Source: Natronorubrum halalkaliphilum
GTDB lineage: Archaea > Halobacteriota > Halobacteria > Halobacteriales > Natrialbaceae
DNA length: 61,014 nt
Direction: 5' to 3'
Assembly (NCBI RefSeq): GCF_009834785.1
Contig: NZ_WUYX01000026.1
Span: 1 to 61,014, forward strand
The notes beneath the pieces are model-generated. The model ran no database searches. It was not told the DNA's origin and worked only from the letters and a program-made list of their open reading frames with translations. Shown here piece by piece: positions 22,260-58,239 of the stretch (its first letter is position 1; every line of letters begins with the position of its first letter). The translations under genes and the position numbers were made by a program.

Positions 22260-22837
22260 AAACTTCAGTCAGACGGGTGTGTGACGGACTCGAGACGCGC
22301 GGTCGAGTGGGTGACAGGGCGATGGCGGTGCCGGGATGACTGCCAAACCATGTTGGGAGAACGACTTTCATTGGAACTGGGGTATCGTCGTGACGGGGCC
22401 GCAGCTCACGCCGCACGGAACGGCTGTGACGGTGTGGCCCGGCGAGAAAGTCGGCTGTGGGCCGGATATCCGCGATTCCGTCTCGATGGTGGTGTGTCGA
22501 CTGCGGTCCAGCCCACATCGTTTCGGCCCGGTTGGAACGATATCAGTTTGTCGGACCGGCGTGTCGATGACTCTGTGACTGCTGGAACCGTTCTTGGAGT
22601 CGGATCTCGCGGCGTCATCGGGTTCTCGAGCACGTGATACCGAACAGGAGTGTCCGTGCTCGGAATCGCAGTACTGGAACGGGGAAGTGGCCGCTTCCTG
22701 ATTGGGTGACTCGAGTAACGATGGGTTTCGTTCGGCCGACACGGTTGAAACGCGGATTTCCCCCCGGAACGACGTATTGAGTTCCGTAATAGTACTCACG
22801 GTTTAAGAATCGACCAGTTCGTCGGCTAGCTGGAGAC
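22260..22837. other. Non-coding stretch of 578 bp
   Basis: Several short open frames cross this gap on both strands, but none shows family similarity, coding bias or a plausible ribosome site. Near 22800 the sequence GGTTTAAGAATC is an AT-rich box about 35 bp before the hyperacidic protein's ATG and is the best promoter candidate. I see no RNA gene or clear repeat here. Confidence 0.35.
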
Positions 22838-24493
22838 ATGAGCGCACGCAACATCTTCGTCGTCACAATTGCAGTGATGATGCTCGCGAGCGGGGGTGCA
22901 TTCGCAGTCGCACCTGCGGGTGCGGCCGTCGACGAGCACGACGACGATCCCGAGACGGATGCCGATGACACCGAGAGCCAACTGACCGTTACAATCGAAC
23001 AGGCGACGATCGTCGTCCTCGATCACACTGACCAACAGGCGATGATGGAGGACGATTCGGACGCTGCTGACGACCACGACGCGGACGATGACCTCGAGAC
23101 CGATGCCGACGATGACGATGGCGTAGCAGCGGACGACGACGATGAGGAGGTGGGTGTTGATGACGAAGCTGCCGGCGACGAGGCTGCCGTCGATGACGAA
23201 GAGATGATGGAGCACATCCAGCTGCAGGTCTCGTTCAACGAAGTGACGATCGTCGACCTCACCGACCACCTTGACGAGGCGGATGATGTCGACGATGTGG
23301 ACGATGAAGAGGCCGACGATCACGACACCGAAGTAGGCGATGAAGACGCAGACGCTGATGAGGACGCTGCCGTCGACGATGACGAAACCGACGCTGACGA
23401 CGGCGTTGACGACACCGACCTAGACGCGGACGACGATGCGGATAACGACGCGGTCGACGTTGGCGACGACGAGCTGACCGTCGACCAGGCGACGATTTTC
23501 GTCGTCATTGACAGTGATGACGAGGAGGATCACGATGCCGATGATGCCGACGACGACGCAGACGAGCACGACGCTGACGACGATGAACTCGATACGGACG
23601 CTGACGAGAACGACAACGGCGTTGACGCCGACGACGATACCGACGCCGACGACGGCATTGACGACGCAGCCGAAACGGAAGACGCCCACACTGAGGACGA
23701 CGAACTAACCGTCGATCAGGCAACTATCTTCGTTGTGCTCGAGGACCACGCCGAGGACGATCCCGGCGTCGATGACGCCGACGACGATGCAGAACACGAC
23801 GCTGACGAAAACGACAACGACGATCTCAACGACGACGACGATGCTGACGCCGACGAAAACGGTGTCGACGACGCTGACGACGACATGGCCGACGACCACG
23901 CAGCTGACGACGAGCACCAGATGCAGGTGACGATCGAGCAGGCGACCATCTTCGTCGTCGGTGACCACCTCGGCGAGGATCTGACCGCCGAAGAGCCGGC
24001 TGCCGAGGAGGACCCCGAAACTGACGACAATGACGTCGACGCCGACGAAAACGGTGTCGACGATGACGACGCTGCTGACAACGACGTCGACGACGACACG
24101 CCAGCAGCTGACGAGGATGACGACACCGAGGCCGACGACGACATGGCCGACGACACCGAGGCCGACGACGACATGGCCGACGACGACATGGCCGACGACA
24201 CCGAGGCCGACGACACCGAGGCCGACGACGACACCGACGCTACCGATGACGACCTAGACGCGGACGACGAAGCGGATGACGAACCGGTTGCCGAGGACGA
24301 ACCCGATGCTGACGACGAGGAACGCATCCAGGTAACGATCGAACAGGCGACCATCTTCGTCCTGTCCGACCACGCTGAGGACATGGCGGACGACCACGCC
24401 GAGCCCGACACTGAAGACGACGAACCGGGTGACGACGATGGTGATAATGGAGACGACGATGACGCCACCGAAGCCGCAATCGCCGCCCACTAA
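22838..24493 (+). CDS. Secreted hyperacidic Asp-rich repeat protein
   Basis: A 551-residue protein with a signal peptide (1-30, NIFVVTIAVMMLASGGAFAV then APAGAA). Roughly half of the mature residues are Asp or Glu, far beyond the usual haloarchaeal excess. Six copies of a hydrophobic beta-like unit punctuate it at about 48-62, 128-143, 212-226, 289-304, 361-377 and 496-512, with consensus (L/V)TVTIEQATIFVVxDH. Between them run Asp-rich linkers such as DADENDNGVDADDD (254-267) and DADENGVDDADDD, which resemble Ca2+-binding thrombospondin-3-type D-x-D-x-D/N-G loops. No membrane anchor is present. A cation-binding or matrix role is inferred; no named family is recognised. Confidence 0.75.
   Translation: MSARNIFVVTIAVMMLASGGAFAVAPAGAAVDEHDDDPETDADDTESQLTVTIEQATIVVLDHTDQQAMMEDDSDAADDHDADDDLETDADDDDGVAADDDDEEVGVDDEAAGDEAAVDDEEMMEHIQLQVSFNEVTIVDLTDHLDEADDVDDVDDEEADDHDTEVGDEDADADEDAAVDDDETDADDGVDDTDLDADDDADNDAVDVGDDELTVDQATIFVVIDSDDEEDHDADDADDDADEHDADDDELDTDADENDNGVDADDDTDADDGIDDAAETEDAHTEDDELTVDQATIFVVLEDHAEDDPGVDDADDDAEHDADENDNDDLNDDDDADADENGVDDADDDMADDHAADDEHQMQVTIEQATIFVVGDHLGEDLTAEEPAAEEDPETDDNDVDADENGVDDDDAADNDVDDDTPAADEDDDTEADDDMADDTEADDDMADDDMADDTEADDTEADDDTDATDDDLDADDEADDEPVAEDEPDADDEERIQVTIEQATIFVLSDHAEDMADDHAEPDTEDDEPGDDDGDNGDDDDATEAAIAAH
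24119..24240 (+). repeat. Tandem repeat inside the hyperacidic gene
   Basis: Near-identical units built from GACACCGAGGCCGACGAC and GACATGGCC are repeated in tandem, encoding DTEADDDMADD-type repeats (residues about 428-466). The almost perfect nucleotide identity points to recent slippage or recombination, so length may vary between strains. Confidence 0.7.
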
Positions 24494-24706: not shown

Positions 24707-25408
24707 TCACTCCGTGGCGAAGATCAGCGACAGCAATTTCTGCTCGGCTTTGCGCAAGTGTTCCGAGAACGTCGCGTACGTCACCCCGAGTTCGGCCGCG
24801 AGCTCTTCGCCCGTGTTCTCCCGCGGCCAGTCGTAGTAGCCGTTCGTATACGCGAGCACGAGCACTTCCCGTTGGCGCGGAGTGAACAGACGCGTCACGG
24901 CTTCCTGCAGTTCCTTGCGCTGGAAGAGCGGCACCGGCGTCGGTTTCTGTCGTCGCGCGATGATCTCCATCGAGGGGTAGTGCTCTTCGAATCGGCTGAT
25001 GACGTCCGAGGCGGAGTACGTCGCGGGGATTTCGGCGACGATCCGCGCCACTCCGTCCTTGCTCGCTAACTGCGTCGGGATCGCGCCCGCATCGGTCAAG
25101 CAGATCGTGAAAAATCCGCCCTCCGCACTGATTCGAAATTCCACGACCGCGCTCTCGTCGCCGCTGGTGACCAGCCGCGCGTCGAACCCGTCGTAGGAGC
25201 GGGTGAACTCGAGGACCCGTTCCGGATCGGTGCCGCTGATCCGCTGGAACACCGTGTAGGCACCGTTGCTTCGCGGCAGGAGCTGGAGGAGCTCCGCCTC
25301 ACAGCCCGTCTCCGCGGACAGTGCGACTAACGGATATCGAGGGTCGGAGACTTCGAACTCGACTTCGACAGCCGCGTTCTCCACCTCGGCTCCTTGAGAT
25401 ATGGTCAC
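24707..25408 (-). CDS. HTH_10 (bacterio-opsin activator type) regulator
   Basis: A 233-residue transcription regulator. An N-terminal sensor-like alpha/beta domain (about 10-160) is followed by the C-terminal HTH_10 domain. That domain runs from LFTPRQREVLVLAYTNGYYD through GEELAAELGVTYATFSEHLR to the end. This bat-type arrangement is a large haloarchaeal family that controls diverse genes. No ligand can be named from the N-domain. It is transcribed from a gap of about 415 bp whose proximal part is AT-rich (ATTCACTATTACCATTCATAATAG). It is a single gene, convergent with the hyperacidic protein gene. Confidence 0.88.
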   Translation of the reverse strand: MTISQGAEVENAAVEVEFEVSDPRYPLVALSAETGCEAELLQLLPRSNGAYTVFQRISGTDPERVLEFTRSYDGFDARLVTSGDESAVVEFRISAEGGFFTICLTDAGAIPTQLASKDGVARIVAEIPATYSASDVISRFEEHYPSMEIIARRQKPTPVPLFQRKELQEAVTRLFTPRQREVLVLAYTNGYYDWPRENTGEELAAELGVTYATFSEHLRKAEQKLLSLIFATE

Positions 25409-26420: not shown

Positions 26421-26786
26421 TCAGTGGCTACGGCAGGTCTTCGCCGTGAGGAGATCGAGATACGGGTGCAACACATCGCGATTTACGCGGAGGGTCACCG
26501 TTTTCCGCCCTTCGTCGTACGCGATGAGCTTCGCCTCGAGAAGATGCGGGAGGTGAAGATGGTAGAAGCCCGTGAGAATGCGTTCGTACCGGTCTCGCGT
26601 GGGTTCCCCTTCACGGACGGCGATGTATTCTGCGACGTCACCGAGCGGAACGGCTGCCGGTTTTTGGGCCAGATACTGAAGCGCGTACTGGCGTCGTTCG
26701 TGTGAAAGCGCTTCGAACATCGTCGTCGGCTCGATCTCTCGGCTGCTCGTTCCTACGTCGTCGGGGTCAAATGCGTTGGACTTCAT
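26421..26786 (-). CDS. DUF7344-type winged-helix regulator
   Basis: A 121-residue protein from ATG 26786 (MKSNAFDPDDVGTSS). The core block TMFEALSHERRQYALQYLAQ is the opening helix typical of the haloarchaeal DUF7344 wHTH group. It is followed by VPLGDVAEYIAVREG, a helix-turn-helix with GFYHLHLPHLLEAKLIAYD, and the wing KTVTLRVNRDVLHPYL. It probably binds DNA as a small repressor or activator. No neighbour in the same orientation is close enough to be an operon partner. Confidence 0.72.
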   Translation of the reverse strand: MKSNAFDPDDVGTSSREIEPTTMFEALSHERRQYALQYLAQKPAAVPLGDVAEYIAVREGEPTRDRYERILTGFYHLHLPHLLEAKLIAYDEGRKTVTLRVNRDVLHPYLDLLTAKTCRSH

Positions 26787-26954
26787 GGGTACTCCGGTAC
26801 TCAGCTTACACGACACTCCAAGAGACAACTCGTCACAAACCAACTTCAGCGGAGCCTGTCTGCTGAATCTGCAACCACGAATATAGGCGTTCCGGTTACG
26901 TCAAATGAGTTACAAACTGACTGTCCGGAAAAGCTGGTTTATTTCCGGGGAACG

Positions 26955-44674: not shown

Positions 44675-45748
44675 ATGTACCGAGACCATACCGTAGGCGT
44701 CGTCATCCCTGCATACAATGAGGAGGGTTTCGTGGGAGATGTGATCACGTCCATGCCCGACTATGTCGACAGGATGTTCGTGATCGACGATCAGTCAACC
44801 GACGGAACGTGGGACGAGATTCTAGAGGCTGCCGAGGAAGATTCCGTTTCGGCTGACCCGTTGACGAGAGGTGAGAGTGATACGTCAGAGCCGAGAGCAG
44901 TCGCGACGGACGGTGGATCGATGCTTACAGACCGAGCAGTCGTTTCCGATCGGATTGGTCGCGTTGTTCCGATTCAACACCGTGAGAATCTTGGCGCTGG
45001 TGGCGCGATCAAGACGGGGTATCTGGCTGCACTCGAGTACGGTGTCGATATCGTTCCAACTGTAGACGGGGACGGACAAATGGACCTTTCACAAATGAGT
45101 CGGTTACTCGATCCAATTGTCGAAGAGGAAGCCGACTATGCAAAAGGGAATCGATTACTATACAAGGGCTATCGGTCCAATATGCCGAAGTTCCGGTTCT
45201 TCGGTAACTCCATTCTGACGTTCCTGACGAAAATCGCGTCGGGCTACTGGAAAACAATGGATCCCCAAAACGGATATACAGCAATTTCAGGCTATGCGCT
45301 GGCTAACGTCGGAATTGAGGATATGTACGAATACTACGGCTACTGTAACGATCTCTTGGTAAAGTTGAACGCCAAGGGGATGCGTGTTGCAGATGTCGCG
45401 ATTCCAGCCGTGTATGGGGATGAAGAGTCCTCAATCAATTACACAACGTACATACGGAAGGTGTCGGGAATGTTGTTACGGAATTTCTTCTGGCGGTTAA
45501 AGGTGAAGTACCTCGTGTTGGACTTCCATCCGCTGGCATTATTCTACCTATTTGGAGTAACGACTGCCGGACTGGGTATCGCCGGTTCGCTGTGGTCGTT
45601 GTACGCGAAGTTCGTATTGGGGGATCCATTATTCGTTCGTGCATCTGCGAGTTTGCTTCTGTTCTCCATTGGGAGTATGTTCGTCATGTTTGCAATGCTG
45701 TTTGATATGCAGTCAAACGAGAGTCGAGAGGTACAAGTCCGTGACTGA
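44675..45748 (+). CDS. Family 2 glycosyltransferase with C-terminal membrane helices
   Basis: A 357-residue GT2 enzyme. The GT-A core shows VGVVIPAYNEEGFVGDVITS, FVIDDQSTDGTWDEI, GAGGAIKTGYLAALEYGVDI, the D-x-D in VPTVDGDGQMDLSQM and the acceptor block MDPQNGYTAISGYALANVG. Two C-terminal helices (LALFYLFGVTTAGLGIAGSL, ASLLLFSIGSMFVMFAML) anchor it. Dolichol-phosphate sugar synthases and AglD/AglJ-type enzymes look like this. An insert at about 58-95 (ESDTSEPRAVATDGG) is unusual for the core fold. It directly abuts the dehydrogenase gene (TAA-ATG). Confidence 0.85.
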   Translation: MYRDHTVGVVIPAYNEEGFVGDVITSMPDYVDRMFVIDDQSTDGTWDEILEAAEEDSVSADPLTRGESDTSEPRAVATDGGSMLTDRAVVSDRIGRVVPIQHRENLGAGGAIKTGYLAALEYGVDIVPTVDGDGQMDLSQMSRLLDPIVEEEADYAKGNRLLYKGYRSNMPKFRFFGNSILTFLTKIASGYWKTMDPQNGYTAISGYALANVGIEDMYEYYGYCNDLLVKLNAKGMRVADVAIPAVYGDEESSINYTTYIRKVSGMLLRNFFWRLKVKYLVLDFHPLALFYLFGVTTAGLGIAGSLWSLYAKFVLGDPLFVRASASLLLFSIGSMFVMFAMLFDMQSNESREVQVRD

Positions 45749-46580
45749 GGAGAAACTCGCTTGCATAACGCTCGATCTCGAGAACGATTGGTACTTTGAC
45801 GAAGATGGCTACGACCATCTCACATTCGAGTACATCGATGACTACATCAAGCTAATACAGGAACTAGAAATCCCGATAACATTTTTTGTTGTTGGAAAGA
45901 CGATGGAACGGTTTCCAAATGTGATTAATAAACTAGATGAGAAACTAAATTCTGAATTTTACCTACATTCTTATCAGCATGATATTTCAAAGTCGTATGA
46001 TTTTCGAACGGAGGTTCAAAACGGAAAAGAAGTGTTCGAATCGCATTTCGGGTACGAACCCAAGGGTTATCGAGCACCCCAGGGGAACATCGAACCCCCT
46101 GAGTTCGAGATTCTGGAAGATGAGGGATTCATATTTGATTCAAGTATATTCCCATCGTATCGACCAGGTATCTACAGTAACCTCGACAAGCCGTTGGTGC
46201 CGTACCAGCCAACTAAAGCAGAAAGACTCCTTGAAATCCCGATTACAGCGACCCCTTACACACGAATTCCACTCTCTCAGAGCTATCTCAAATTGCTCGG
46301 CCAGCCATATCTCATGTATATTAGACATACACCCTTAGCAGACTCGTTGGTCTTCAATACGCATCTTCAGGATTTCTATCAGACAGAATCGCATGATAAG
46401 CTTGGTCAGCCAAAAAAGACCATCATGAAAAGAAATCTTAATAACTCTACCGAGATTTTTAAGTCACTAATAGAGATTTTGCAAAGAAAAGGGTATAAAT
46501 TCTCGACCATTTCAGAAATTCGAAGAAGGCATGAATATTCTACAAAAGAAAAAGGGGATGACAATAAACAGACTAGTTAG
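45741..46580 (+). CDS. Polysaccharide deacetylase (NodB-type)
   Basis: A 279-residue protein from GTG 45741, overlapping the GT2 stop by eight bases. NodB-type motifs: CITLDLENDWYF (Asp pair at strand 1), FYLHSYQHDISKSYDFR supplying the His of motif 2, and GYRAPQGNIEPPEFEIL as motif 3. The remainder (DSSIFPSYRPGIYSNL) is like those of archaeal and bacterial exopolysaccharide deacetylases. It probably removes N-acetyl groups from a surface polysaccharide, a metal-dependent reaction. From this gene rightward the DNA is clearly more AT-rich than to the left, a sign of acquisition. Confidence 0.82.
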   Translation: MTEEKLACITLDLENDWYFDEDGYDHLTFEYIDDYIKLIQELEIPITFFVVGKTMERFPNVINKLDEKLNSEFYLHSYQHDISKSYDFRTEVQNGKEVFESHFGYEPKGYRAPQGNIEPPEFEILEDEGFIFDSSIFPSYRPGIYSNLDKPLVPYQPTKAERLLEIPITATPYTRIPLSQSYLKLLGQPYLMYIRHTPLADSLVFNTHLQDFYQTESHDKLGQPKKTIMKRNLNNSTEIFKSLIEILQRKGYKFSTISEIRRRHEYSTKEKGDDNKQTS

Positions 46581-46712
46581 AATTCACGATATCACGACAG
46601 TATCTGGTAGGATCTGTGAAAAGCAAGCAAATTGTAGAGTTAGTATAGGTCAGTCCTCACAAAACTACTCAGCAAGAATTATGTGATGGGGATTATTCGC
46701 CCTCTTGCGCCC

Positions 46713-47831
46713 TTAAACAAGCGAGTTGACTTCTTCGCCAATATCACATATCTGTTTTTCTTTTAATTTTGAGTGTACTGGGAGATTGATGATTTTCTTG
46801 GCTATATTTGCTGATACAGGGCAAGTTTGTGGATTGTTTGGCAAGCTGTAAGAATACATCTTTGAACATCCTATTCCGCGACGACGAAGTTGAGCGATGA
46901 GATCGTCTCGGTCATTCTCTACGAGAATTGAGTACCTAAAATAGGAATGGTCATTTTTGATTTTGGGAGTAGTAACCAAATCAGACAAAATTTGGTTGTA
47001 TATTTGAGCGTTTTGGCGCCTCCTATTGACTCTGGTCTGCAGTTTATCTAGCTGATTTTCCAAGAGTTTTGTAGTCCGATTCTGTATCTCTATGGATTCA
47101 AGCGGGCCTAATTCTTGTGAACTTGATGTGAAGAGTGGAGTAAGAATTCGCCGACGGATAATGTCATAGAGCTTACCTGGCATTAGGTTAAATAGCGTGT
47201 CTGTAGCAAAAATTGAAACTAGCCCTAACAATGTGAGGAAATCAGACTTTTTTCCATTTCGTATATTCGCCATAGGTTGATTGCTTAAAACAATACCGCC
47301 TCCCTTTGATGTTATCTCTTTAGAAAAACGAAGGCTGAATATACAATAATCACTATGTGTCCCAATTTTGTCATTTAACACCAATGTTCCTAAGGCTTGG
47401 GCAGCATCTTCAATTATAATAAGATTATTATTAGCGGCGACCTTAGCAATAGAAGGCATATCACATGTATTCCCAAATAAATGAACAGGTATAATAACAG
47501 AACTATCCTCCGTAATCTTATTTTTTAGATCGCTAACGTCAATAGTGAAATTCACCGGGTCGACATCTACAAATACTGGAGTTGCAATTTCTTCAACTGC
47601 ACTGGCAACTGCATAACACGTATATGCTGGCAACAAAACTTCATCATGTTCTTGTAACTCTAAAGAGTTAAGAACATTATAGATTCCTGCCCTACCAGAT
47701 TGGAATATCGTAGTGTATTCAAACTCTGTCCTATGAGAAAGATTGCACCAAAACTCTGAATTAACTCCTGGTTTAAAATAGGCAGAAAAGTCTGACGGAT
47801 GCAATTGTATACGTTCAACTCTTGCTTTCAT
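46713..47831 (-). CDS. DegT/DnrJ/EryC1 aminotransferase
   Basis: A 372-residue PLP-dependent sugar aminotransferase-like protein. It has TTIFQSGRAGIYNVLNSLEL, VLLPAYTCYAVASAVEEIAT, VIPVHLFGNTCDMPSIAKVA, IIEDAAQALGT and the Lys region DYCIFSLRFSKEITSKGGGI, where the PLP Lys is expected within FSKEITSKGGG. These enzymes make amino sugars for surface glycans. It is transcribed toward the deacetylase (convergent) and forms a leftward pair with the DHHA1-domain gene behind it. Strongly AT-rich codon usage suggests recent origin elsewhere. Confidence 0.85.
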   Translation of the reverse strand: MKARVERIQLHPSDFSAYFKPGVNSEFWCNLSHRTEFEYTTIFQSGRAGIYNVLNSLELQEHDEVLLPAYTCYAVASAVEEIATPVFVDVDPVNFTIDVSDLKNKITEDSSVIIPVHLFGNTCDMPSIAKVAANNNLIIIEDAAQALGTLVLNDKIGTHSDYCIFSLRFSKEITSKGGGIVLSNQPMANIRNGKKSDFLTLLGLVSIFATDTLFNLMPGKLYDIIRRRILTPLFTSSSQELGPLESIEIQNRTTKLLENQLDKLQTRVNRRRQNAQIYNQILSDLVTTPKIKNDHSYFRYSILVENDRDDLIAQLRRRGIGCSKMYSYSLPNNPQTCPVSANIAKKIINLPVHSKLKEKQICDIGEEVNSLV

Positions 47832-47903
47832 TAAAATCTGTCTCCATATGATAATCTATTAATTGAATCGGTTGATTTCATGCTGCCAAGCGACTATGGA
47901 GTA

Positions 47904-48554
47904 TTAATTGATTCCGTTGTTATTAATGTTTTCCTTTAACTGTTTCATCGCCTCCTGTAGCTCAGTTCTAGTGAGACCACCACCGGTGGCAAGTTGATCC
48001 GTGCCGCCAGCACCTCCTTCACCAAGTTCAGCGATACGCTTTGCAATGTTCACGGCTGCATAATTCTCTGAAAGATTAGATGATACCCCAACTGCAAATT
48101 TTCCATCGTCCAAGATACCAGCCAACAGAATTACATTCTCTTGGTGAATGGCACTCGATGCTAATTGTTCAATATCATCAAAATTCCCACTTGTGAAGAT
48201 TACATCTATTACAAATTCTGACTCAGTAGGAGGGTTCTCTTTACGAGCAGACCACCACGCATCAATCCAACGTTGACGTGTCTGGTCAATTGATTTATTA
48301 AGTTCCCTAATACGGTTATCTAGTTGCTCTACTTCCTCTGGTAAATCTTCCTGGCGACAATTAAGCATATCAGTAACCATTTCTAGTGTTTGTGTAGACG
48401 TGCCAGTTCGATCGATTGTGGAAGGTGACTGCGGGCGTTGCCATTCTTTTATAGACTCAGTATCAATTACTGACGATTTTGATCGCCACCACCAAAATAC
48501 GTTCGTAATGATAAGGCATCCAAAAAGGATTCCAGCAATAAGTCTCCAAGTCAT
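47904..48554 (-). CDS. Membrane-anchored DHHA1 (AlaRS C-terminal) domain protein
   Basis: A 216-residue protein from ATG 48554; a GTG at 48605 is possible, but a TATATAATC-like box lies too close to it. Layout: one membrane helix (about 4-23, LIAGILFGCLIITNVFWWW), a coiled coil (about 70-95, DLPEEVEQLDNRIRELNKSI), then a DHHA1/C-Ala domain (about 140-205). The domain shows NVILLAGILDDGKFAVGVSS, the Gly-rich EGGAGG (about 179-184) and QLATGGGLTRTEL, matching the C-terminal domain of alanyl-tRNA synthetase. There is no synthetase or DHH phosphoesterase part. DHHA1 binds RNA or nucleotide; a lone membrane-tethered copy in a glycan locus is odd and has no known role. Confidence 0.72.
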   Translation of the reverse strand: MTWRLIAGILFGCLIITNVFWWWRSKSSVIDTESIKEWQRPQSPSTIDRTGTSTQTLEMVTDMLNCRQEDLPEEVEQLDNRIRELNKSIDQTRQRWIDAWWSARKENPPTESEFVIDVIFTSGNFDDIEQLASSAIHQENVILLAGILDDGKFAVGVSSNLSENYAAVNIAKRIAELGEGGAGGTDQLATGGGLTRTELQEAMKQLKENINNNGIN

Positions 48555-48722
48555 TGTGATATTAGTACCGCTTTTTGCCAGCAGTATAGTTACTTTGATT
48601 CTCACGATTATATGGGTTAGTATCCCTCTAATTACTAACTATGCCCTACCTGTTTGACAGGAATAACATCAGTTAACTGGAGGAAGTAAGTCATTTTATT
48701 ACCTTTGTTTCGGTAACGTCTA

Positions 48723-49787
48723 ATGATGGACATCCAAATCTCACCAGATGAAACTGATTGGAACCAATTTATCGAATCAAATTCAGGACCTATCTTCAAT
48801 CGGAACGAGTGGAGCGCAATATGCTCAATATATGGTCATAAATCATACAATATGGCAGTCATTAATGATTCAGGTGATATTTGCGCATGTCTACCTCTTA
48901 TCCATCTTAAGAGCGCTATCTTTGGTAATACTTTAGTTTCAATGCCATTCTCAGAGCACGGTTCGATAGTAATAGATGAGTCTATCAACGATCGAAACCA
49001 AGCCGTTGACCTTTTGAGAGGGAAAGCACAGGAATTGGCTCAACAAAAGGGAGTAGATTATCTTTGCTTACGAGGTTCGAGATATCCGTCTTCTAAAGAG
49101 TTTATTCGTCTAAGTAGATATGTAACATTTGTAGTCGAGACTAATTCTTCAATGGAAGATATATGGGATTCTTTTGAAACACGTTTTCGGACAAATATAC
49201 GCAATTCTCGCGATCATAGTCTTACAACCCAAGTAGTTGAAAATGAGGCAAGCAACTTTTCGCACGATCCAGTAAGTAGTTATTATAATCTCCACCTTCG
49301 AACAATGCGCGATCTAGGAAGCCCGCCTCATGCTAAAAGCTTTTTCGTTAATATATGGAGGAAATTAGGAAAAATAGATGGCGCAATATTCATTTTCGTA
49401 ATATATGATGGGATCCCTATTAACGCAGCTCTTGCATTCCCTTACGGTGATACAGTACATTATTGGGGTGCTGTCTCAAAACCCAACTACCGTCACCTCA
49501 ATGGAGGAAGTTTGCTACTCTGGAAGTGCATAAAATGGGCTCAAAATAACGGTTACCAACAAGTAGATCTAGGACGTACTCGACCAGGGACAGGGGTCTA
49601 CAAATTCAAATCAGGCACAAATGGGCAGGAAATATACCTTGATGATCTTTTTTATTTTCCAGAAGAAATTAGTATGCCTCCCGATCCAGAGGATTCAAAA
49701 TTCACCCCGTTAATACGTATTTGGAGACAGTTGCCGTTATCTGTAACAGAGGCCCTTGGACCTCACTTACGAGGAAACATCCCATAA
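48723..49787 (+). CDS. FemAB/GNAT-like acyltransferase
   Basis: A 354-residue protein (start ATG 48723 or 48726). The FemAB/BioF2-like double-GNAT layout is suggested by IFNRNEWSAICSIYGHKSYN, AVINDSGDICACLPLIHLKS, SMEDIWDSFETRFRTNIRNS and LGSPPHAKSFFVNIWRKLG. YWGAVSKPNYRHLNGGSLLL and the end KFKSGTNGQEIYLDDLFYF also fit. Homologues in exopolysaccharide systems transfer an aminoacyl or acyl group to a glycan or lipid. AT-rich, opposite to the DHHA1 gene. Confidence 0.78.
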   Translation: MMDIQISPDETDWNQFIESNSGPIFNRNEWSAICSIYGHKSYNMAVINDSGDICACLPLIHLKSAIFGNTLVSMPFSEHGSIVIDESINDRNQAVDLLRGKAQELAQQKGVDYLCLRGSRYPSSKEFIRLSRYVTFVVETNSSMEDIWDSFETRFRTNIRNSRDHSLTTQVVENEASNFSHDPVSSYYNLHLRTMRDLGSPPHAKSFFVNIWRKLGKIDGAIFIFVIYDGIPINAALAFPYGDTVHYWGAVSKPNYRHLNGGSLLLWKCIKWAQNNGYQQVDLGRTRPGTGVYKFKSGTNGQEIYLDDLFYFPEEISMPPDPEDSKFTPLIRIWRQLPLSVTEALGPHLRGNIP

Positions 49788-50116
49788 TTTATAGACTCAA
49801 TCATCAACTCGCCGGCATAAATACTAGACGAGTGTATGGGCGAGTCAGGAACCTTTTAGTCCAACCAGAACCCCGTGCTGTGCACCTCACGGTTCGGTTT
49901 GGCACGTGGAGAACAAAGCTGAGAGGCGATTACTGAAGCGTCTAAACAAGGCTAAAAACTGTATAGGAAATCTGGGAGTTGGTGAACTCGTATTTGCTCC
50001 CTCATAGCAGAGGTGATTACGATTGTGTTAGACATACTTTCTGCACCGCGTTGTTTCGTACGTAGTATATTATATGGGCCAATGGGATAATATAAATCCC
50101 TAGCTAACGTGAATGT
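49788..50116. other. Gap of 329 bp with mobile-gene remnants
   Basis: A plus-strand piece near 49850-49935 encodes VHLTVRFGTWRTKLRGDY, perhaps a transposase tail. 50020-50063 repeats the block at 20-63 (33 of 44 bases) and encodes VLDILSAPRCFVR. Nothing complete is left; these are traces of lost elements between the acyltransferase and sulfatase-fold genes. Confidence 0.4.
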
Positions 50117-51304
50117 CTATAAGTAACCTAAATCTTTAAGCCGGTCCTCTGTGTCTTTAGTCATGGCCCGTTCTACCTTTTCTGCAAGGTGTTGATCTAT
50201 AGAGCCAAGCTCTTTGTCTGACTGTTCAATTGGAAAATCAGGTGAACCCCACGTTTTTTGATCCGAGAATAGAAGCTTAAATCCAGTTGGATTGCGAGTT
50301 TTTCGAAGATGCTTCCCTGCGGATATTCGTGTTAGATAACCTATTGTAAGTTTAATCTTTGACCAAATATTTGAACGAACGAATACATGACCCCCGTCTT
50401 TATCCCACTTACTGTCTATTCTATAATTAAATTCTCCTTGAAAAGATGGGAATCTTCGATTATAGAGACAATAGGCTGTCTCCCGATCATATTCAGGGTC
50501 AAAGATCGGTGAACCAGGTGTATCTGAGAACGGTTCTTTATCAAGCAAGTGTGAGACTGTTACCGGTAAATCAACGTGACTAGTTATATCAATATCTATA
50601 CTAGGAAGGTCAGGATGAATGTAAAAGGTGGGTACATACACGATTTCTGGGCACATAGGATAAGATTGGCTTACATGCCCGTACTCTCCAAGAAGTTCAC
50701 CATGATCTGAAAGGAATATGATTAAAGTATCATCAAGAAGATCACGGTCTTTCAATGGTTGTAAAACATATTTTTCAAACCGATTGATGGAGTCGTTAAT
50801 TCCCTTTTCGTACATCTTACGGAGGTTTTCGGTATCCCCAGCGTGTTCTGTGAAGAAGTCTGGAACAGATATCTCAGCGTTCATGTCCATGTCCCATCGT
50901 CCATATGGTGCATGGCCGCCTGGGTCACGCATAAACCAGCCAAATGGTTCCTGAATATCATCTAGAGAAAGACGGTCATATCTTTGTAAAGGATAGTCAT
51001 ATATTGTTTCGTTGAAAAATTTTCCCAAATGATCGTCGTTCAACATCCCTCCAACATCACTAAGCCCAGAGTGTTCGAATTGATCCAATATTGTTGGTGT
51101 CTCCTCAGGAATTACATCTGTAAAGCCCCCTACACCATGTTGTGGAAGATATTGACCAGTCAGCATACTAGCTATTGAAGTCGGGGTATGCGATGAGGCG
51201 CTTATTGTTTTGAATCCTTCACCCTTTTTTTGAATCTCTTCGGGGATCGAATCCCAACGAATCGAATCAGACATATATATTACAAGGTTGCTTGCATCTA
51301 TCAT
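50117..51304 (-). CDS. Sulfatase/alkaline-phosphatase-fold enzyme
   Basis: A 395-residue protein. The metal site begins at NLVIYMSDSIRWDSIPEEIQ (Asp near the N-terminus), the nucleophile region is HTPTSIASMLTGQYLPQHGV, and IIFLSDHGELLGEYGH gives the Asp-His pair. This is the sulfatase/LTA-synthase-like alkaline phosphatase fold, without a signal or membrane helix. It may transfer or remove a phospho- or sulfo-group on a surface glycan. Haloarchaeal N-glycans carry sulfated sugars, so that is a reasonable but unproven substrate. Divergent from the DUF354 gene 54 bp away, sharing a promoter region. Confidence 0.82.
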   Translation of the reverse strand: MIDASNLVIYMSDSIRWDSIPEEIQKKGEGFKTISASSHTPTSIASMLTGQYLPQHGVGGFTDVIPEETPTILDQFEHSGLSDVGGMLNDDHLGKFFNETIYDYPLQRYDRLSLDDIQEPFGWFMRDPGGHAPYGRWDMDMNAEISVPDFFTEHAGDTENLRKMYEKGINDSINRFEKYVLQPLKDRDLLDDTLIIFLSDHGELLGEYGHVSQSYPMCPEIVYVPTFYIHPDLPSIDIDITSHVDLPVTVSHLLDKEPFSDTPGSPIFDPEYDRETAYCLYNRRFPSFQGEFNYRIDSKWDKDGGHVFVRSNIWSKIKLTIGYLTRISAGKHLRKTRNPTGFKLLFSDQKTWGSPDFPIEQSDKELGSIDQHLAEKVERAMTKDTEDRLKDLGYL

Positions 51305-51358
51305 GCCTGATCAGTTTGATTGGATAGATTTATATTTTTGGATTCACACTCATCCTCT

Positions 51359-52405
51359 ATGGCGCGCATTCTTTTCAGTATTCATCATCCAGCACATGTA
51401 CATTTCTTTCGAAACGCTATAAAGGAACTCACAGATGATGGAAATTCCATCGCTGTTTTTGCTAGAGATAAGGATGTAACTGTACAACTATTGGAAAGTT
51501 ACTCAATACAGCACGAAATCTTGTCCGGAAATTTCAAAACTACGATGGGATTAGTTAAAGAAAGTTTGAAGTATGAATTTAACCTGTTACGGAAGGCTAG
51601 GGACTTCGAACCAGATATATTAGTCTCGATTGGAAGTGGTGCACTAACTTCTTACATATCTAGTTTGATTGGTGCTACTAGTATTGCATTTAATGATACC
51701 GAAAATGCAACCCTTCAAAATCGTATCGGTTACCCAATGGTAGACCAAATTTTCACTCCAGACTGTTATAATGGTGATCACGGCACCAAACACGTAAAGT
51801 ATGCAGGTTATCATGAACTGGCATATTTACACCCAGATAGATTTAAACCTGATCCATCAGTGCTCAATATGGCTGGACTTGATCACGATGAACAGTTTGT
51901 CATACTACGATTGATCTCTTGGGATGCAATACATGATGTTGGTGATAGTGGGTTTAAGGATATTGTTGATGTCGTGGAAGAACTAGAGGACACAGGTGCT
52001 ACAGTTAGAATTACGTCTGAAGCGAATCTACCATCAGGTGTTGAAGATCGGCAAGTTTCAATCCCACCACATCAAATTCACGATCTTATGGCCTTTGCAG
52101 ATCTATATGTGGGAGAAAGTGCAACAATGGCTGCAGAGAGTTCTGTTCTTGGAACACCAGCTATTTTTGTGTCTTCAAGCCGCAGAGGCTATACCGACGA
52201 ACTTGAGGCAAAATATGGACTCGTTTTTAATTACTCTGATGAAAGTCGTCATAAAGATGGACTCAATCAAGCACTGAAAATTCTGGAGAGAGATGATGAC
52301 GAAAATTGGGAAAAACGTCGTCAAAAAATGCTTGAAGAAAAAATTGACACAACAGATTTCATAACGAAAACAATTCAAAAATCAGTTAGGGGGGCTAATA
52401 GATGA
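51359..52405 (+). CDS. DUF354 glycosyltransferase-like protein
   Basis: A 348-residue protein from ATG 51359, 20-30 bp after a TATA-like TTTATATTTTTGG, so a nearly leaderless transcript. Start RILFSIHHPAHVHFFRNAIK is the DUF354 opening of a GT-B fold. The block SIGSGALTSYISSLIGATSI, the central YAGYHELAYLHPDRF and the C-terminal VGESATMAAESSVLGTPAIF complete the pattern. DUF354 proteins are archaeal relatives of MurG-type enzymes in polysaccharide synthesis, probably moving a sugar from a nucleotide donor. The 3' end is intact and the IS graveyard begins about 30 bp later. Confidence 0.8.
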   Translation: MARILFSIHHPAHVHFFRNAIKELTDDGNSIAVFARDKDVTVQLLESYSIQHEILSGNFKTTMGLVKESLKYEFNLLRKARDFEPDILVSIGSGALTSYISSLIGATSIAFNDTENATLQNRIGYPMVDQIFTPDCYNGDHGTKHVKYAGYHELAYLHPDRFKPDPSVLNMAGLDHDEQFVILRLISWDAIHDVGDSGFKDIVDVVEELEDTGATVRITSEANLPSGVEDRQVSIPPHQIHDLMAFADLYVGESATMAAESSVLGTPAIFVSSSRRGYTDELEAKYGLVFNYSDESRHKDGLNQALKILERDDDENWEKRRQKMLEEKIDTTDFITKTIQKSVRGANR

Positions 52406-54667: not shown

Positions 54668-55119
54668 TCATTAAGCCGTCGCGGGTCGCGGTCGACGAGA
54701 AACAGATCGAGGTAGATGGTGAGAAAAAGTGGCTGTACGCCGCAATCGACACAGAATCAAAGCTTCTGCTAGAAATCGATGTCTACAGCCGCCGCGGGAC
54801 TGACCCCGCGGCGGCGTTCCTGCATCGGCTCACCGAGAAACATGAAATCGACGAGACAGAGTTTCTCGTCGATGCTGGCGGGGATTTGACTGCCCTCGCG
54901 TGCCACGAATTGAGCGGTCAGCTCAACTACAGCGACCGAAACCACGTCGAAAAGTGGTTTCAGACTGTGCCAATGCGGATCGACCGCCTTCACTCCTTCT
55001 GGCGGGGCAGTCCGGCCAGCGCAAGACGCTGGCTCAGACGCTTCAGATACCATTATAACCACGATCGACCGAATCAAGCACTCAATGGCCGAACGCCAGC
55101 TGAGGAGGTGTCGAACTAG
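54663..55119 (+). pseudogene. IS6-type transposase, C-terminal two thirds
   Basis: Frame with SRVAVDEKQIEVDGEKKWLY (first DDE Asp), DETEFLVDAGGDLTALACHE (second Asp) and NYSDRNHVEKWFQTVPMRID (Glu). It ends FRYHYNHDRPNQALNGRTPA. These are the IS6 DDE motifs. The N-terminal HTH half is separated to 52445-52530. As split it cannot encode a transposase. Confidence 0.7.
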
Positions 55120-55256
55120 ACAGTGCCGTATGATGCTAGATATCTATAAAACGAATATAATATGAACTCTAAAACCGAATTCGTCTACGACGAGTCGACG
55201 ACCAGCCAATGAAAAAGAAATATGGTTTGGTTAAACCAAGGATAATAATGAAATAA

Positions 55257-55384
55257 TGTCTTCTGATATTAGAATGCAACCATCCGGAAATCGAGAAGCA
55301 GAAGTAATCAATCATCTTAACAAAGCTTACAAAGGATGGGGTAACAAAGAATACATTACGTATACGAAAGGAGATAGGATTTGA
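55257..55384 (+). CDS. 42-residue ORF resembling a GNAT N-terminus
   Basis: Short frame MSSDIRMQPSGNREAEVINH ending in YTKGDRI*, directly abutting the next ATG (TGA-ATG). The part VINHLNKAYKGWGNKEYI resembles the first helix of GNAT acetyltransferases from polysaccharide loci. It may be a truncated leftover or a leader peptide coupled to the GT gene. Confidence is low because of its size. Confidence 0.35.
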
Positions 55385-56296
55385 ATGAAGGTTTTAAATC
55401 TGGTGACAACGCCAAGGCCGTTCTTTGATAATCAGTTACGAGCACTTCAAAGACTCGGTGTTGAAGTTGATGTAATCCAAGTGCCAGGCCGGGAATCCCA
55501 AGAAGAGTCTCGCTTGGCCACTGATTACTTACAGTATTATCCGAATGTACTCCGAAAACAGTTTGAGGACTACGATTTAGTTCATGCAAACTTCGGTAAT
55601 ACTACCCCATTCGCTATATTTCAGCCAACACGGCCTATTGTTGTCTCTTTCTGGGGGTCAGACCTTATGGGTCGATTCGGTGCAATTAATTCTCGTTTTG
55701 CATCTTTATTCAACGAAGTGATCCTACCGTCACCTGTACTCACTAGATATGTTCCCTGTGATTGTCATATAATACCATTTGAGATTAACACGGAACTCTT
55801 TTGTCCAATTTCAAAGTCAGAAGCACGTTTGGAAGTAGGTTGGGAACAAAACAAAAACTATATTTTATTCCCCTATTCGGAAACGAGAGAAGAAAAAAAC
55901 TATCCGCTAGCAAGACGCATAGCAGACAATGCTGACCAGAATGTTGAACTTATTGCGATCTCAGAAGTCGAATATGAGCAAATGCCATACTATATCAATG
56001 CAAGTGATGTAGTATTAATAACATCAAAACGAGAGAGTGGTCCAATGGTCGTCAAAGAGGCTGCATTATGTAATACACCAGTCATTTCCACCGACGTTGG
56101 ATTTGTGTCAGATGTATTATCAGATGTGAAGAATTCATACGTCTGTAGTTCAGAAGCAGAACTTGTTGAACAGTTAGATGATGTACTTGAATCAGGCAAC
56201 CAATCGAATGGCAGAAAATATGCTAATGAATGGGGATTAGATACAATGGGAGAACAATTAGTTAATGTGTATGAATCTGCTATAACCAACCAATGA
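55385..56296 (+). CDS. Family 4 glycosyltransferase (GT-B)
   Basis: A 303-residue GT4 enzyme. N-terminal domain begins KVLNLVTTPRPFFDNQLRAL, with RPIVVSFWGSDLMGRFGAIN and ILPSPVLTRYVPCDCHIIPF typical of the acceptor side. The donor domain carries KRESGPMVVKEAALCNTPVI, the E-x7-E motif of GT4 enzymes. It is somewhat short for the family but has both domains. It is AT-rich and follows the IS graveyard by some 265 bp. The stop overlaps the start of the membrane glycosyltransferase-like gene by ATGA. Confidence 0.83.
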   Translation: MKVLNLVTTPRPFFDNQLRALQRLGVEVDVIQVPGRESQEESRLATDYLQYYPNVLRKQFEDYDLVHANFGNTTPFAIFQPTRPIVVSFWGSDLMGRFGAINSRFASLFNEVILPSPVLTRYVPCDCHIIPFEINTELFCPISKSEARLEVGWEQNKNYILFPYSETREEKNYPLARRIADNADQNVELIAISEVEYEQMPYYINASDVVLITSKRESGPMVVKEAALCNTPVISTDVGFVSDVLSDVKNSYVCSSEAELVEQLDDVLESGNQSNGRKYANEWGLDTMGEQLVNVYESAITNQ

Positions 56297-58239
56297 ATTA
56301 TCTTCATCCAAATCATTTGATTGAGAAACTAACTAGGTTGTGGATTCTTGGACCCTTACTACTAGTAATCGGAGCTATTGGAGTGTACTTTTCCACAGTC
56401 ATACGAAATCCATATACTCTTTTATATCCTCCATCCCTTATTTTCGCGCCGTTTCTAGCATTCATATTGGTGCACTATAATTCTGATGACTTACCAATAG
56501 GGGAAAAGAAACTATTTGGAAAGATAATCGTATTCACCTTTCTATTATTATTATCTATCGTTATTATCCTATATCGGGAAAATGGTTTCCAAAGAACAAG
56601 TACTATCTTCTATCTTACATTCGCACTTTATCTACTGACAGCACTACATATTTTCACCCAACCCAAGCCCGTACTCAGTTTGGTTATGATTTTGATTGCT
56701 GGGATAACAAACAGACTAACAGCATATTATTCGAGTTCCCTATACAATGGGGTTGATATATATACCCATAGCAACTACATCAAATCTATAACTGCTAACG
56801 GGTCCTTAGAGGTTTTTGCCACAAGTAAGTATTTTTATGCACCCTTTTATCATATTCTAGCATCAAGTGCGGAATTGATATATGCGGTACCAACTCGTGA
56901 TGCGATCGTTCTTACCACACTTATAGCGGTAACAGTACTTCCGATGCTTGCTGTCTATCTTATAACAATCCAATTCTGGAACTCAACGAACAGTCTAGTT
57001 GCCGGATTTCTATATATCACAACAGACCATGCAATTGGTTGGGGAATTCATGTGATTCCAACCTCATTAGGCCTTGTATTCTTTTCCCTTCTATTCTTAT
57101 CATTAATGAAGTATGTGTGCTGGAGAAGGAAGCGTCAACTCATCTTAGCAATAGCGATGATGACAGCACTCATGTTCACTCATCAAGTTAGTCTATTTAT
57201 TGCAATTACTGCAACAGTGGCATTTGCGATATCAACAGTTATATATCAATTGAACATCTCGAGGATCGAAGTAAATATTGGTCTCTTGGCTGGCCTTACA
57301 ATGTTTATAGATTTTGTTGTCACAAAGTATAGCGGACCACAAGGAACAGCCAGCTTTTTTGATGTTGTTCTAGGAAATCTATTCATTTCTCTGATGGGTG
57401 CTGGTACAGAAGCTCGTACAGAAGTAGCCGTCCCTCAGGATCCATCTATCAGCCCGTCTGGGGCTGCTGCTCTTACACTTCCTCAGGTTGTTGGTTCTGC
57501 TATCCTCCTCACATTTGCTATTGTGGGTGCCCTGTACTGGTTATCAAACCGTCGAGAAAATGACGCTTTATTTATCGGTATCGGATTGAGTACTGTCACA
57601 ACGGTGTTACTTTTTGTGACATTGGTTGGTCCAGTAATAGGGCTACGAAATCTCTTACCAAGTAGATGGTGGGCGTTTATATATATTTTTCTAGCTGTGC
57701 TCGCTGCTCCAGGACTAATTGCGACCATAAATATAGGATCGAAATTGTTTGTTCCAATACTAAATTTAAGCAATTTTCAAAATGTGACTATAATACTCAT
57801 ATTAATTGTTGTCCCGTATATTGCTTTGATGGGTGGTAATTATGCAGGGGCCTCTGATGACCCTCTATTAGATGATGCACCTGGAGCAGAAGAAATGAAA
57901 GTCACTGATTCAGAAAAACAGTTGTTTGAACACGCTATTGAATATCAGGACAGCACAAATATCCTAGCGGATCGTCGGGCATCAGCCATATTCTCACGAT
58001 ATTATGGTGTTCCAGCAAACACATTATCTATAGATCTTGATAGTCAAGAACATATACAAGAACCATCCATTGTTATTAACAGAGAGTATATTCATACAAG
58101 ACATTCCCAATATGAAATTAGAACAGAGCAAGCTATACATGTTGTTCATGGCCGTTTCCCAATAACTGAACTACCGACTACGTCTAAGCAACCTATCTAC
58201 AATAGTGGAAACCACGAGATTACTCATATTTCTTTCTGA
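56293..58239 (+). CDS. Large polytopic membrane protein, GT-C-like
   Basis: A 648-residue integral membrane protein with about 12 hydrophobic helices in the first 520 residues and a soluble C-terminal part (about 540-648). Near residue 153 the loop NGVDIYTHSNYIKSI shows the Asp-x-x-x-His pattern, and KYFYAPFYHILAS follows. Both are characteristic of archaeal GT-C glycosyltransferases that use lipid-linked donors. It probably adds a sugar outside the membrane or acts as a flippase-like polymerase. Coupled by ATGA to the GT4 gene. Strongly AT-rich. Confidence 0.72.
   Translation: MNYLHPNHLIEKLTRLWILGPLLLVIGAIGVYFSTVIRNPYTLLYPPSLIFAPFLAFILVHYNSDDLPIGEKKLFGKIIVFTFLLLLSIVIILYRENGFQRTSTIFYLTFALYLLTALHIFTQPKPVLSLVMILIAGITNRLTAYYSSSLYNGVDIYTHSNYIKSITANGSLEVFATSKYFYAPFYHILASSAELIYAVPTRDAIVLTTLIAVTVLPMLAVYLITIQFWNSTNSLVAGFLYITTDHAIGWGIHVIPTSLGLVFFSLLFLSLMKYVCWRRKRQLILAIAMMTALMFTHQVSLFIAITATVAFAISTVIYQLNISRIEVNIGLLAGLTMFIDFVVTKYSGPQGTASFFDVVLGNLFISLMGAGTEARTEVAVPQDPSISPSGAAALTLPQVVGSAILLTFAIVGALYWLSNRRENDALFIGIGLSTVTTVLLFVTLVGPVIGLRNLLPSRWWAFIYIFLAVLAAPGLIATINIGSKLFVPILNLSNFQNVTIILILIVVPYIALMGGNYAGASDDPLLDDAPGAEEMKVTDSEKQLFEHAIEYQDSTNILADRRASAIFSRYYGVPANTLSIDLDSQEHIQEPSIVINREYIHTRHSQYEIRTEQAIHVVHGRFPITELPTTSKQPIYNSGNHEITHISF

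Follow-up and report, generated by a model that had tools for sequence, protein, structure and literature searches.

A Natrialbaceae family of secreted proteins with conserved hydrophobic units and variable acidic linkers

The repeats of the curli subunit CsgA follow the pattern S-X5-Q-X-G-X-G-N-X-A-X3-Q. FapC, the major subunit of the functional amyloid of Pseudomonas, contains a narrow number of repeats of fixed length, which are joined by highly variable linkers and lie in the fibre core (PMC3792158, PMC12392863); the Fap repeat has the pattern X15-G-X4-N-X3-G-X6-N-X7 (PMC3792158). In the Archaea, sheath amyloids are described for the methanogens Methanosaeta and Methanospirillum (PMC6242892, PMC10593813). 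For biofilms of Haloferax volcanii, the presence of extracellular amyloid was suggested by staining with dyes (PMC4180959), and the literature searched contained no haloarchaeal protein established as amyloid. Here we describe a gene from Natronorubrum halalkaliphilum whose product resembles FapC in its layout.

The gene is located at positions 22838..24493 (+) of the analyzed stretch of 61,014 nucleotides (the window); ORF analysis, composition and family searches identify it as a gene for a protein of 551 amino acids with short strand-like units and acidic spacers. The N-terminal region is a Sec-type signal peptide (MSARNIFVVTIAVMMLASGGAFAVAPAGAA, 22838..22927, +), which is conserved in the family and predicted by AF2 to be helical at residues 4-17; its end is approximate. 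The mature chain (residues 31-551) consists of 37.4% Asp and 11.9% Glu, in sum 49%, and contains a single Arg and no Lys, so that trypsin would be expected to miss it; the predicted charge is about -254 at pH 7. Six hydrophobic islands, separated by 73-135 residues from start to start, were detected without any profile. The acidic linkers between them (23033..24316, +, units excluded) are conserved neither in sequence nor in length, and an acidic tail with the last residues EAAIAAH (24377..24490, +) ends without a C-terminal Cys or CxC. Searches with the window protein gave no match in Pfam and NCBIfam at E<=1 and no match among PDB sequences. The preliminary description of a secreted protein, about half Asp and Glu in its mature part, with six beta-like hydrophobic units at spacings of 70-135 residues and a layout known from no named family, is in agreement with these data. 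The DNA similarity of the gene inside its own genome reflects mostly acidic codon composition.

For scoring of the units we used an HMM trained solely on units of other genera. Unit 1 (QLTVTIEQATIVVLDH, 22973..23032, +) reached 22.5 bits, unit 3 (DELTVDQATIFVVIDS, 23459..23518, +) 20.0 bits, unit 4 (DELTVDQATIFVVLED, 23690..23749, +) 19.3 bits, and unit 5 (QMQVTIEQATIFVVGD, 23912..23971, +) and unit 6 (RIQVTIEQATIFVLSD, 24317..24376, +) 27.7 bits each. Among 2000 shuffles of the mature chain the maximum was 8.1 bits, and four shuffles exceeded 5 bits. Unit 2 (IQLQVSFNEVTIVDLTDHL, 23213..23272, +; LQVSFNEVTIVDL) belongs to a divergent type, which occurs in other genera too, and scored 3.3 bits with this HMM and 10.7 bits with the iterated family model. 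The consensus over 196 units is x-L-x-V-T-I-E-Q-A-T-I-F-V-V, with Ala in 93% at one position and the adjacent Thr in 84%. Hydrophobic residues are found at profile positions 3, 5 and 7 and then at 10, 12 and 14, so that the phase flips at E-Q, and both faces are hydrophobic at positions 12-16. The hydrophobic phase pattern is typical of strands; from the flip and the two-faced positions we infer that the unit is a beta strand that bulges or arcs at E-Q. A search of the PDB with the unit profile gave a telomere protein as best match (E=1.9).

Relatives were sought first with the whole protein and then with a profile of 26 units. This search for other unit-bearing proteins, suggested in the preliminary description, revealed a family with matches in 68 of 125 Natrialbaceae genomes and 23 of 29 genera, mostly with several units per ORF. 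In 392 genomes of the order, just three weak single-unit matches (E 0.004-0.009) were located outside the Natrialbaceae, and these were taken as chance. Within 257 Gb, a nucleotide pattern encoding TIEQAT[IV][FY]V had exact matches in 17 stretches; 15 of them belong to Natrialbaceae (Natrialba, Natronococcus, Natronolimnohabitans and MAGs) and two to bacterial MAGs, which is about the number estimated for chance. No member was found in the plasmids and viral contigs searched. The units define a family which is essentially confined to Natrialbaceae and has no Pfam or NCBIfam model.

Two forms of the family can be distinguished. The short forms consist of a signal peptide, mostly five to six units and linkers; the long forms contain additionally a DUF7282 domain and in some cases an Ig-like stretch. 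The unit number is not absolute, and some members have three, four or five islands. The long-form relatives that were scanned matched DUF7282 (PF23951) at about 1e-42 to 1e-44, and PF23951 is absent from the window protein. In nine other Natronorubrum genomes no six-unit match comparable to the window protein was present, and the six matches examined there, which have about three units, belong to the DUF7282 long forms. The source genome itself encodes a long-form paralogue (L131:2548-4605, +, on contig G000:C24), in which a CARDB/Ig-like stretch accompanies DUF7282 and three units. A relative from Natronolimnohabitans (G130, L074) shares part of its surroundings with the window.

The linkers of the family are 5-186 residues long and contain 33.5% Asp and 17.5% Glu. 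The linker repeats of other genera, for example EEPVEEEPV, DDDEAPVDDDEEPV, DNDSVDDGLTD and NETDDGVGTDD, are unrelated, and the Natronococcus species compared have nearly unchanged units, with linker lengths that differ by as much as about 30 residues. A C-terminal Cys or CxC is present in 13 of 38 members and absent from the window protein. It was recorded at twelve loci in the endings TSC, TAC, CAC, CTC and CSC, and the mature chains of members with such an end are mostly free of other Cys residues. Members with such an end may be cross-linked or anchored by it. Another secreted-looking protein of the source genome (L085:9803-11458, -, about G000:C6:73800-75460) has a frame of 552 residues, 50% Asp and Glu and linkers of the DDADDENGVDD type, but other, pentapeptide-like units (VTIENATIEELNVEDL); it is a second design of strands and acidic residues within this genome.

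Simple counting of substitutions yielded dN/dS values of 0.22-0.55 for the units, by which they are evidently under purifying selection. For 14 proteins with six units, units from different genera that occupy equivalent positions scored 36.3 on average, against 31.1 ± 0.35 with permuted order, and none of 500 permutations reached this value; as these proteins are related, the result reflects shared descent of ordered units and no independent events. Judged by this comparison, the units are not freely exchanged. The unit-2 type is recognisably separate and sits at position 4 in Natronococcus-like members. Sequence constraint is located in the units and, ahead of the genes, in an upstream element common to the family, which the preliminary description does not mention; the linkers keep their acidity and no metal site.

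This upstream element is a block of the form GAAAT-N-GTTG-NN-CCGGTTTA-N-GC, often with TTT a few bases ahead of GAAAT, and could be aligned for 35 of the 36 regions upstream of short-form and long-form genes. It contains on average 1.15 bits per column, compared to 0.24-0.39 in the flanks; as [GC]TTTA served as the anchor of the alignment and the rows were filtered by score, the invariance of the TTTA columns is built in. The copy in the window (TTT..GAAAT-N-GTTG-NN-CCGGTTTA, 22773..22810, +) is degenerate, with 15 of 20 consensus bases and GTAAT for GAAAT, and a TATA-like GGTTTAAG is located about 30 nt ahead of the ATG. A scan of five whole genomes for the near-exact pattern gave six sites. 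Four of them precede family genes (G070, G074, G130 and G000:C24), and the other two are located ahead of a DUF7282 protein of the sister kind and of a small signal-peptide-like ORF. The block ahead of the long-form paralogue of the source genome has one mismatch. Many members (family genes L045-L084) carry TTTC or ATTT before GAAA(T), which forms a small dyad; this putative operator could be the binding site of a regulator.

In the window the gene is followed by a convergent gene for a transcription regulator with BAT and HTH_10 domains (24707..25408, -) and by a DUF7344 winged-HTH-like gene (26421..26843, -). Long-form members from at least 10 genera likewise have a convergent gene of the DUF7344 family as neighbour, in surroundings that are broadly conserved; it was seen at fourteen loci. 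Besides this regulator near the long forms, no conserved gene was seen among the recurrent neighbours. The G+C content of the window decreases from about 0.6 to 0.39-0.44 at positions 45000-52000 and 55000-58000, which suggests an acquired island.

A fold prediction of the window protein produced long strands at five units, but with low overall confidence (AF2 with 26 sequences and a single chain; pLDDT 52, pTM 0.39). Units 1, 2, 4, 5 and 6 were modelled as long strands that are paired according to DSSP, the best unit blocks with pLDDT 70-85; unit 3 is a short strand and barely modelled, and most linker blocks had a pLDDT near or below 50. For a second member, a short-linker relative, the confidence was lower and the strands were weaker. 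Foldseek found no match to the model of the window protein in the PDB. The prediction supports strands at the units and says little on the mode of their pairing.

With FapC the family shares secretion, a narrow number of conserved repeats, a length that is set by the linkers and position-specific repeat features. The mostly five to six units and the linkers of 5-186 residues correspond to the narrow repeat number and variable linkers of FapC as a resemblance in layout only. The FapC repeat comprises 39 residues with a G/N/Q pattern, whereas the unit of the window family has about 14-16 residues with the sequence V-T-I-E-Q-A-T; moreover, the linkers are polyacidic, and any fibres of the family are hypothetical. 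Both the Fap and the curli repeat pattern are absent from all 38 members, and therefore we do not file the family with Fap or curli. No conserved neighbours resembling the fapABCDEF cluster were seen around the family genes. FapC is, by analogy, the closest layout analogue without detectable homology, and the two may work alike. Like the methanogen sheath amyloids, the family is archaeal, extracellular and, according to prediction, composed of beta-rich structural proteins; unlike the window family, these sheaths enclose the cell and belong to another archaeal class, and the window protein was compared with them only through the absent Pfam and PDB matches. With the haloarchaeal DUF7282 surface proteins there is an overlap in the long forms, which combine DUF7282, the units and the upstream block of the family. 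The window protein has no DUF7282, and Pfam covers this domain alone and not the units. The window protein itself combines a signal peptide, several VTIEQATIFVV units and an acidic chain, as is characteristic of its own family.

We favor the explanation, with a probability of roughly 0.45, that the gene encodes a secreted surface or matrix protein in which the strands pair into a beta core and hydrated acidic spacers remain outside. Each unit would be a short beta segment with an amphipathic first half and a second half that is hydrophobic on both faces. The five to six segments of a chain would pair mutually, and probably also with those of neighbouring molecules. The long Asp/Glu linkers would stay unfolded and hydrated outside this core in brine and keep it soluble, or form a polyanionic coat or gel. 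In relatives with a C-terminal Cys or CxC, this end would serve to cross-link the chain or to anchor it, and the fused DUF7282 and Ig-like domains would couple the unit module to other surface parts. This explanation is based on the five to six units per protein, their positional identity and purifying selection, the variable acidic linkers, the paired strands in the AF2 model and the strand-like hydrophobic phase, and further on the DUF7282 and Ig-like fusions, the Cys ends, the near family-exclusive upstream block and the precedent of FapC. The low AF2 confidence, the poorer result for the second member, the Foldseek search without match and the missing C-terminal Cys of the window protein count against it. 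Pairing of the units as strands is probable, the chances of a matrix or surface role are about even, and assembly between molecules is somewhat doubtful; a charge of about -250 per chain should oppose assembly unless it is screened by salt. An extended acidic extracellular matrix, already proposed in the preliminary description, is still a good reading.

The paired strands within one AF2 chain, together with the narrow number and position-specific character of the units, would also be expected if the strands of each chain folded on their own into a compact beta sheet, sandwich or barrel, with the linkers as giant surface loops, and the protein stayed a non-polymerising monomer. The AF2 input was a single chain, however, and therefore unable to show inter-chain pairing. 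We consider a compact domain rather unlikely, with a unit number that varies (3, 5, 6), a unit-2 type that shifts to position 4 in some genera and no fold match. A multivalent docking scaffold, in which each unit, as a short linear motif, would supply a strand to a surface partner protein and the linkers would merely space the motifs, seems unlikelier still. Short motifs in many copies, flexible linkers and fused surface domains are in line with such a scaffold, but beside the family genes we saw no conserved partner gene apart from the DUF7344 regulator, and the positional identity suggests that the units face one another and not one common partner.

In the preliminary description the linkers were said to look like calcium-binding loops, and binding of large numbers of divalent cations was proposed as one of two possible roles. 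Indeed, like TSP3/EF-loop or RTX proteins, some linkers have Asp/Asn/Gly-rich stretches that resemble EF-loops, and the window protein contains three D-x-[DNS]-x-[DNS]-G starts compared to 0.9 expected from shuffles. Some relatives have many such starts, with 28 in L066. In contrast, the loop is absent from 24 of 38 members, and the signatures of TSP3 (D-x-D-x-D-G-x2-D-x2-[DC]) and RTX (GGxGxDx[hydrophobic]) were found in none of the 38; calcium loops as a conserved function of the family were rejected on these grounds. A buffer or sensor for which Ca2+ or Mg2+ binding by the acidic linkers is the selected function, as a mature chain with 49% Asp and Glu might suggest, is very improbable, since the conserved sequence consists of the hydrophobic units outside such stretches and not of the linkers. 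Nonspecific cation binding by the many carboxylates is likely as a side effect. Low-complexity drift, with acidic codon repeats expanding in a dispensable secreted protein, would account for the tandem repeats in the linkers and their different lengths in close species, but it is hardly credible with positionally conserved units under purifying selection and a conserved signal peptide and upstream block.

Taken together, the analysis confirms the observation of the preliminary description and extends it to a whole family of secreted proteins, restricted to Natrialbaceae, in which the units are conserved, the acidic linkers vary and an upstream element is shared. The favored strand-pairing core could be part of a haloarchaeal system similar to functional amyloids, in which about six position-specific strands lead to a cross-beta assembly in brine, surrounded by polyanionic linkers; the genes would be expressed from a promoter element common to the family, and C-terminal cysteines or fused surface domains would hold the assembly in place in some relatives. 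We regard this extension as speculative and on balance unlikely. The family represents a concrete amyloid candidate in a haloarchaeal group other than Haloferax. Its unit is short and well delimited, variants with three to six units occur naturally, and the regulation through the upstream element is traceable. A further question is a physical one: how could chains that each carry about 250 negative charges come together, and is it molar salt that permits this?
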